Assembly: GCA_018268355.1 (NCBI GenBank)
Contig: JAFDWR010000003.1
Coordinates: 248,001 to 312,000 of the forward strand
From: Armatimonadota bacterium
GTDB lineage: Bacteria > Armatimonadota > Fimbriimonadia > Fimbriimonadales > Fimbriimonadaceae
DNA length: 64,000 nucleotides
Direction: 5' to 3'
Under the pieces are notes generated by a model, which saw only the letters and a list, made by a program, of their open reading frames with translations, made no database searches and was not told where the DNA came from. Numbering within the stretch: position 1 is the stretch's first letter; each line of letters opens with the position of its first letter. The position numbers were made by a program, and so were the translations under genes. Below are positions 48,695-49,358 of the stretch, in pieces.

Positions 48695-49037
48695 TGGCCC
48701 GCCCGAAAGGAATCGAACCTTCGACCGACCGCTTAGCTTCCCCTCTACGGCTTGCGCCGCCCAATGCTTGGGCAAAGGTTTGTGGGCTGGATCATCCCTT
48801 GACCATTTCGCCGGTGAGAGCGAGGCAGGTCCCCGCCGTCTGATCTCTACACCTTTCGACTTCAACTGAAATCGACTTGGCTCGGGATTACCACCGCGCT
48901 CGGCGGGGCTTCCCCGAATTTGACGGGTTCTACGCTGCAACTTTCGCTGCAGGCACTCCTAATATGCGGTTTTCTGGCTTGCCCGAAAACACCAACATGA
49001 CTGAAGGCGGTTGCTCTATCCGCTGAGCTACGGGCGG
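48695..49037 (-). tRNA. tRNA-Arg(UCU) split by a group I intron
   Basis: Exon 1 (49004-49037) runs from the acceptor strand CCGCCCG to U34; exon 2 (48695-48736) runs from C35 to the encoded CCA. Joined, they give 76 nt with anticodon stem ACCGC/GCGGT, loop CTTCTAA (anticodon TCT), variable loop of 5, T arm GAAGG-TTCGATT-CCTTT and acceptor CGGGCGG with discriminator G. The mature form resembles typical tRNA-Arg(UCU). The spliced anticodon follows only if the 267-nt insert is removed. Confidence 0.9.
48737..49003 (-). ncRNA. Group I intron (IC3-like) in the tRNA-Arg anticodon loop
   Basis: A 267-nt insertion after U34, ending in G as group I introns do. Core segments strongly resemble the cyanobacterial tRNA-Leu intron: GGTAATCCCGAGCCAAG... 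(minus strand, 48873-48892) and GTCGAAAGGTGTAGAGATCA... (48836-48860). The P7 partner is GATCA with TGATC. A likely P1 pairs exon CTT with an intron GAG, with a hairpin (GTTTTC/GAAAAC) inserted in its loop. P2 is CTGCA/TGCAG. It carries no homing endonuclease. Confidence 0.9.
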
Positions 49038-49097
49038 GCTTTTCGTCAAGAATTCTACCTTGAGCCTTTGGGCACCGCCCAAAAGTTCAAGGGTGGC

Positions 49098-49358
49098 TTA
49101 CGCCGCGCGAAGTCTGGATAGCGAGAGGAGGACTCGGCGGGGCACCTGGTGCAGCCCCAACTCCTCCGCCACGAGCAGGCGGACCATCCGCTCGGACCAG
49201 TTCGAATCATCCGAGACCACGAGGTCGGCGACGAAAGTCTCCTCGTCCCAATAGCACTCGATTTCGAGCACGCCGGGCTGCAACCGAAGAAACTTCTCGG
49301 TTAACTTGGCATCGACTGCATCGGTCCAGGGGCCGCCCATATTGGAAATCGTCGGCAC
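49098..49358 (-). CDS. Small hypothetical protein
   Basis: An intact frame of 86 residues (GTG start; an ATG six codons later is possible) encoding an alpha/beta protein (KFLRLQPGVLEIECYWDEETFVADLVVSDDSNWSERMVRLLVAEELGL). It has no known motif. It lies between the tRNA and the divergent gatB. It is supported only by the open frame and ordinary codon use. Confidence 0.45.
   Translation of the reverse strand: MPTISNMGGPWTDAVDAKLTEKFLRLQPGVLEIECYWDEETFVADLVVSDDSNWSERMVRLLVAEELGLHQVPRRVLLSLSRLRAA

Follow-up and report, generated by a model that had tools for sequence, protein, structure and literature searches.

A probable self-splicing group I intron of the tRNA-Leu type after U34 of tRNA-Arg(UCU) in an Armatimonadota genome

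The window (the whole 64,000-nucleotide stretch of DNA analysed) carries a tRNA-Arg(UCU) gene with an encoded CCA end on its minus strand (49037..48695), and the halves of this gene lie 267 bases apart. The two halves, already noticed in a sequence-only reading of this DNA, were located at 49037..49004 and 48736..48695 (minus strand). ARAGORN missed the gene at its default settings; when introns were permitted, the program called tRNA-Arg(tct), interrupted at position 35 by an intron of 267 nt. The locus is composed as follows.

49004..49037, minus strand: 5' exon, tRNA-Arg(UCU) positions 1-34, ending in C32 U33 U34; sequence CCGCCCGTAGCTCAGCGGATAGAGCAACCGCCTT
48737..49003, minus strand: group I intron, 267 nt, with terminal G; own covariance model 107.1 bits, Rfam RF00028 30.6 bits
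48695..48736, minus strand: 3' exon, tRNA-Arg(UCU) positions 35-76 with encoded CCA; sequence CTAAGCGGTCGGTCGAAGGTTCGATTCCTTTCGGGCGGGCCA

The boundary after U34, the insertion site named in the earlier reading, was the only one that gave a 7-nt anticodon loop, a 5' exon ending in U and an intron ending in G. A boundary after U33, which would create the anticodon GCU (Ser), was rejected, as the intron would then lack its terminal G and the tRNA has no long variable arm. The joined exons formed a cloverleaf with a UCU anticodon and were identical to the intronless tRNA-Arg(UCU) of a relative (L043) at 68 of 76 positions, with agreement around the junction. Among relatives of the same family and order, tRNA-Arg(UCU) was uninterrupted at 27 of the 29 loci examined. 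A promoter scan gave no match. Directly upstream of the gene on the tRNA strand lies a strong inverted repeat, CTTGAACTTTTGGGC / GCCCAAAGGCTCAAG (49055-49096), and an 80-codon small ORF was spotted by eye upstream of the gene at 49098-49340 (minus strand).

Within the intron, P1 to P10 and the terminal G were all found, at the following positions.

48956..48958, minus strand: internal guide sequence GAG, pairing with exon C32 U33 U34 (P1, U.G at the splice site)
48959..48962, minus strand: P10 strand UUAG, 4 pairs with CUAA of the 3' exon
48959..49003, minus strand: P1 loop, 45 nt, with hairpin GUUUUC/GAAAAC; its 3' half is a near match to the P1 loop of L205/L208, a tRNA-Arg(UCG) intron
48935..48952, minus strand: P2 hairpin CUGCAGC-GAAA-GUUGCAG, 7 of 7 pairs
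48832..48927, minus strand: P3 outer span, CCCGUC (48927-48922) with GGCGGG (48837-48832); P4-P6 and the 5' P7 strand lie inside it
48882..48917, minus strand: P4 UCGGGG/UCCCGA, with P5 inside
48856..48875, minus strand: P6a UCGAUUUC/GAAGUCGA, 8 pairs
48790..48845, minus strand: P7, GAUCA (48845-48841) with UGAUC (48794-48790); third pair U-A in place of C-G, a compensatory change private to the window
48801..48831, minus strand: P8 GACC/GGUC
48742..48778, minus strand: P9 CCUUU/AGAGG, P9a GCCCAA/UUGGGC and P9b GGC-GCAA-GCC (P9b read from the alignment)

The group I core helices P3, P4, P5, P6, P7 and P8 form, J8/7 (AAGGGA) is present, and P2, P6a, P9 and P9a also form in the window sequence. 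An alternative guide at GGG within the P1-loop hairpin was dropped; GAG at intron positions 46-48 aligns with the internal guide sequence of all U34 introns.

To score the intron, we used a covariance model of our own, made of 22 core sequences of tRNA introns from other genomes with the window left out; its structure was written from the alignment of those 22 introns. The model matched the window intron end to end with 107.1 bits (E 2.8e-23), which, together with the core helices, bears out the earlier assignment to group I, and this was the single match at E<=1 across the 64 kb. Because a model built without the window gives such a score, a chance match is excluded. The covariance-model hit that the sequence-only reading asked for was obtained: the intron lies far above chance with our own model, and Rfam RF00028 (Intron_gpI) matched the P3-P7 part alone with 30.6 bits (E 5.6e-6) and did not reach its curated cut-off of 50 bits, which is a database threshold. 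This shortfall says little, since the tRNA-Leu(UAA) introns L075 (49.2) and L076 (45.1) of the same family fall short too. Matches to TB11Cs4H1 snoRNA and Gl_U1 from the Rfam search were set aside as chance matches.

When 80 introns were aligned to our model, 96.4% of the structure cells paired, compared with 71.1% after shuffling and no more than 46.0% when partners were slid. Double changes occurred in 27 of 33 pairs, and covariation was 0.554, compared with 0.135 after shuffling and a maximum of 0.081 after sliding. These counts lean towards structure, as the alignment was fitted to it and shuffling leaves the relatedness among the introns in place; the margin is nevertheless wide. The third pair of P7, a helix whose pairs are not part of our model, was C-G in 76 introns and U-A in the window alone (among the 80). 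The pair in P7 that we take, as established knowledge, to bind guanosine was G-C in the window, as in all 78 scorable introns. Thermodynamic folding of the intron was only mildly unusual (z -2.1), as expected because the ribozyme is pseudoknotted. Finally, the intron aligned over its full length with tRNA-Leu(UAA) introns and had the same peripheral plan, as is expected of the IC3 type; with the U34 site and the GAG guide also shared, the kinship with tRNA-Leu(UAA) introns proposed earlier held. Sequence comparison thus confirmed the element as a complete, tRNA-Leu-type group I intron, from which splicing would be expected.

The genome assembly comprises 2.7 Mb in 7 contigs and is 97.7% complete, so that about 2% may be absent. 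A second tRNA-Arg(UCU) was not found among the 41 other tRNA genes detected by Rfam in this 97.7% complete genome, and the intron-bearing gene had one match in the genome; the second intact copy that would have told against the earlier reading was thus not found. AGA codons occurred, though rarely, at 3 of the 3137 codons of nine window genes. The tRNA-Leu(UAA), Arg(UCG), Lys(UUU) and Thr(UGU) genes, which also have CUU at positions 32-34, were uninterrupted in the window genome.

The intron could instead be decayed, or the gene a tRNA pseudogene, while another locus supplies the working tRNA-Arg(UCU). Another copy might be missing from the incomplete assembly and the Rfam score is below the cut-off, but the helices are all intact, P7 carries its private compensatory pair, the exons are conserved and no further tRNA-Arg(UCU) copy was found. 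We consider this explanation very improbable: decay of the intron-bearing gene is unlikely because no other tRNA-Arg(UCU) was found and the joined tRNA is 68/76 like that of the intronless relative.

Three further observations concern the tRNA set. One tRNA gene skipped by ARAGORN reads as Leu(UAG). tRNA-Gly(UCC) was absent from the 41 tRNA matches and from a loose pattern search of the window genome (G000); nine window genes nevertheless contain 33 GGA codons, and the missing tRNA would reflect an assembly gap or an unusual arrangement. In addition, a tRNA-Arg with the anticodon GCG occurs in the window genome (L017) and in G004 (L069), where most bacteria have ACG.

In the splicing pathway that we propose, transcription of the tRNA-Arg(UCU) gene would yield a pre-tRNA that excises its own intron. 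The pre-tRNA(Arg) transcript would fold with its anticodon stem paired, and the intron guide GAG would pair with C32 U33 U34 to form P1. Guanosine held at P7 would then attack after U34, and the freed U34 would attack after the terminal G of the intron while P10 (UUAG:CUAA) holds the 3' exon; the joined anticodon loop CUUCUAA would give tRNA-Arg(UCU). With the complete anatomy, the covariation, the sole copy found, the intact exons and the empty sites in relatives observed directly, and with catalysis and in vivo splicing as what we infer, the element is very probably a working group I intron that removes itself from the tRNA-Arg(UCU) precursor. This strong confidence concerns the nature and working of the element; the accounts of its origin are graded separately below.

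All U34-type introns examined had the guide GAG opposite exon CUU. P10, formed by the four bases 5' of the guide, tended to fit the 3' exon of its own host, and in the window UUAG:CUAA paired at 4 of 4 positions. Across 24 distinct P10/host combinations, with Arg(UCU), Arg(UCG), Leu, Lys and Thr tRNAs as hosts, 53 of 72 first-three P10 pairs were formed as opposed to 37.3 with the hosts shuffled, and 0 of 20000 shuffles reached as high, a count inflated somewhat by the relatedness of the sequences.

We surveyed 85 genomes of the family and found introns of the tRNA-Leu type in 6: Leu(UAA) introns in 2, Arg(UCG) introns in 3 and an Arg(UCU) intron in the window genome only. One of the Arg(UCG) introns (L205/L208) belongs to a MAG deposited as Chthonomonas sp. 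UBA1950 (DDEQ01000010.1), and the same intron was present in G065 of the same family. A pattern scan of a species-genome collection (84,980 species) returned at least 117 stretches. Among the matches listed, at least 13 other tRNA-Arg(UCU) introns follow U34, with hosts that include Acetobacteraceae, Rhodobacteraceae, Halothiobacillus, Shewanella, Fibrisoma, Fibrella, Saprospiraceae, Paludibacteraceae and Cytophagales. At least about two dozen tRNA-Arg(UCU) introns among those listed follow U36, in Vibrionaceae, Colwellia, Psychromonas, Shewanella, Rhodothermales and one Chloroflexi MAG; these have the guide GGG for exon UCU. Introns were also present in Thr(UGU), Lys(UUU) and CAU tRNAs among the matches listed. 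Because many tRNA-Arg(UCU) introns, at U34 and at U36, were among these matches, the class is broad; it is already reported, and the window adds one clear further example to it. The suggestion of an overlooked class therefore survives in part: examples are many and standard tools skip such genes, but the class itself had been reported.

The scan also revealed U36 as a second insertion site in tRNA-Arg(UCU) (L102, L106, L109, L113, L114, L124, L142, L168, L190 and others). tRNA-Lys(UUU) introns lie after U35 (L104, L116, L139, L148, L160, L181, L185, L196 and L204), mostly in proteobacterial MAGs, and several of these genes are labelled Thr, SeC, Glu or Arg by ARAGORN. In relatives of the window genome, Rfam group I matches outside tRNA genes were seen at L073 (G014), L074 (G099) and L079-L090; L073 reads as 23S rRNA sequence, and L074 and L079-L090 perhaps do likewise.

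We infer that the window intron arose by lateral or ectopic insertion. Trees of 75-78 introns, from which cyanobacterial reference introns were left out, were weakly resolved. In the best tree the window intron paired with L183, an Arg(UCU) intron of a Cytophagales MAG (Bacteroidota), with support of 98/79.7 (unstarred). The first tree placed L208, an Arg(UCG) intron, as sister to this pair (91 UFBoot, 75.5 aLRT). In AU tests, p was 0.19 for a clade of the window intron with both family Leu introns, 0.43 for the window intron with L208 alone and 0.07 for all family introns together, so that none of these groupings was rejected; a single clade of all U34 Arg(UCU) introns including the window was rejected (p 0.012). 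Outside the core, the stretch AAGCCAGAAAACCGCATATT within the window P1 loop aligned with AAGCGGCAGAAAACTGCATATT, which makes up almost the whole P1 loop (23 nt) of L208 (AAGC--CAGAAAACCGCATATT in the window and AAGCGGCAGAAAACTGCATATT in the Arg(UCG) intron); the alignment scored 31 as opposed to 18 for the runner-up in the set, with a set-wide shuffle p of 0.003.

The earlier reading had suggested a host shift from tRNA-Leu, for which the tree gave neither support nor rejection. A recent shift from tRNA-Leu(UAA) to tRNA-Arg(UCU) within the family would fit the two family genomes that carry tRNA-Leu(UAA) introns at the U34 site with a GAG guide, and the clade with both Leu introns was not rejected (p 0.19). 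However, the best trees grouped the window intron with Arg introns, not with Leu introns, and its P1 loop is like that of the Arg(UCG) intron and unlike those of the Leu introns; we regard such a shift as improbable. The P1 loop likeness, though one short stretch, favours common descent of the two Arg introns over a Leu origin. Because the window P1 loop nearly matches that of the family's tRNA-Arg(UCG) intron, a shift between Arg isoacceptors is a better lead than a host shift from tRNA-Leu(UAA).

Under an isoacceptor shift, the window intron would have a recent common ancestor with the Arg(UCG) intron carried by the Chthonomonas sp. UBA1950 MAG. The P1 loop match, the sister position of L208 in the first tree and the AU result for the window intron with L208 all agree with this, but the Bacteroidota intron L183 is nearer to the window intron in the tree, L212 and L213, the family's remaining Arg(UCG) introns, group elsewhere, and the P1 loop match is a single short stretch compared after the sequences were seen; such a shift is a plausible, though far from assured, origin. 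Lateral transfer from another phylum, with an Arg(UCU) intron arriving directly at the homologous site, would account for the pairing with L183 and for the presence of U34 Arg(UCU) introns in several phyla, but the branch is long and unstarred and the U34 Arg(UCU) introns are not one clade (p 0.012); we judge it rather unlikely. More broadly, we tentatively suggest that one GAG-guided lineage may jump among tRNAs with C32 U33 U34 (Leu UAA, Arg UCU, Arg UCG, Thr UGU and Lys UUU) with P10 refitted, and that the window intron may be a recent jump between Arg isoacceptors. Reverse splicing is a proposed route for such movement, without direct proof (PMC3984707). A blastn search of phage and plasmid records gave no match.

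The locus marks a blind spot, in that default ARAGORN and the Rfam cut-off both miss the gene and an AGA-reading tRNA would be called absent. Skipping of intron-bearing genes by tRNA finders has been noted for fMet and Ile2 (PMC8450103). Host change of group I introns also becomes testable, because one family has same-site introns in three tRNAs, with the guide kept and P10 mostly matched to the host.

Among known systems, the tRNA-Leu(UAA) introns of cyanobacteria and plastids, and of Armatimonadota (L045 and L075), share with the window intron the U34 site, the GAG guide for CUU and the core helices, but differ in host tRNA and P10 strand; the P1 loop is 45 nt in the window and far shorter in the two Armatimonadota Leu introns. 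The Azoarcus tRNA-Ile(CAU) and proteobacterial tRNA-Arg(CCU) introns are also of the IC3 type in the anticodon loop, but in other tRNAs and at another loop position. The Azoarcus intron is also covered in a review (PMC3984707). The sequence-only reading had placed the known bacterial tRNA-Arg introns in the CCU isoacceptor, which is outdated: PMC4853749, citing MacGregor et al. 2013, describes tRNA-Arg-TCT introns from Beggiatoa 'BOGUAY' and Ca. Thiomargarita nelsonii. There, the same tRNA gene as in the window carries a putative group I intron, the interrupted tRNA-Arg-TCT gene of Thiomargarita has 324 bases, and tRNA-Leu-TAA introns also occur; unlike the window organism these are Gammaproteobacteria, and the likeness is one of gene and intron class taken from the description (PMC4853749). 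The tRNA-Arg(UCG) intron L205/L208, from Armatimonadota of the same family, has the U34 site, the GAG guide and a near-identical P1 loop stretch, but resides in another isoacceptor, is 226 nt long and sits on long tree branches. The U34 tRNA-Arg(UCU) introns L095, L107, L110, L112, L130, L143, L156, L183 and others share gene, site, guide and core with the window intron, and differ from it in belonging to other phyla (Pseudomonadota and Bacteroidota).
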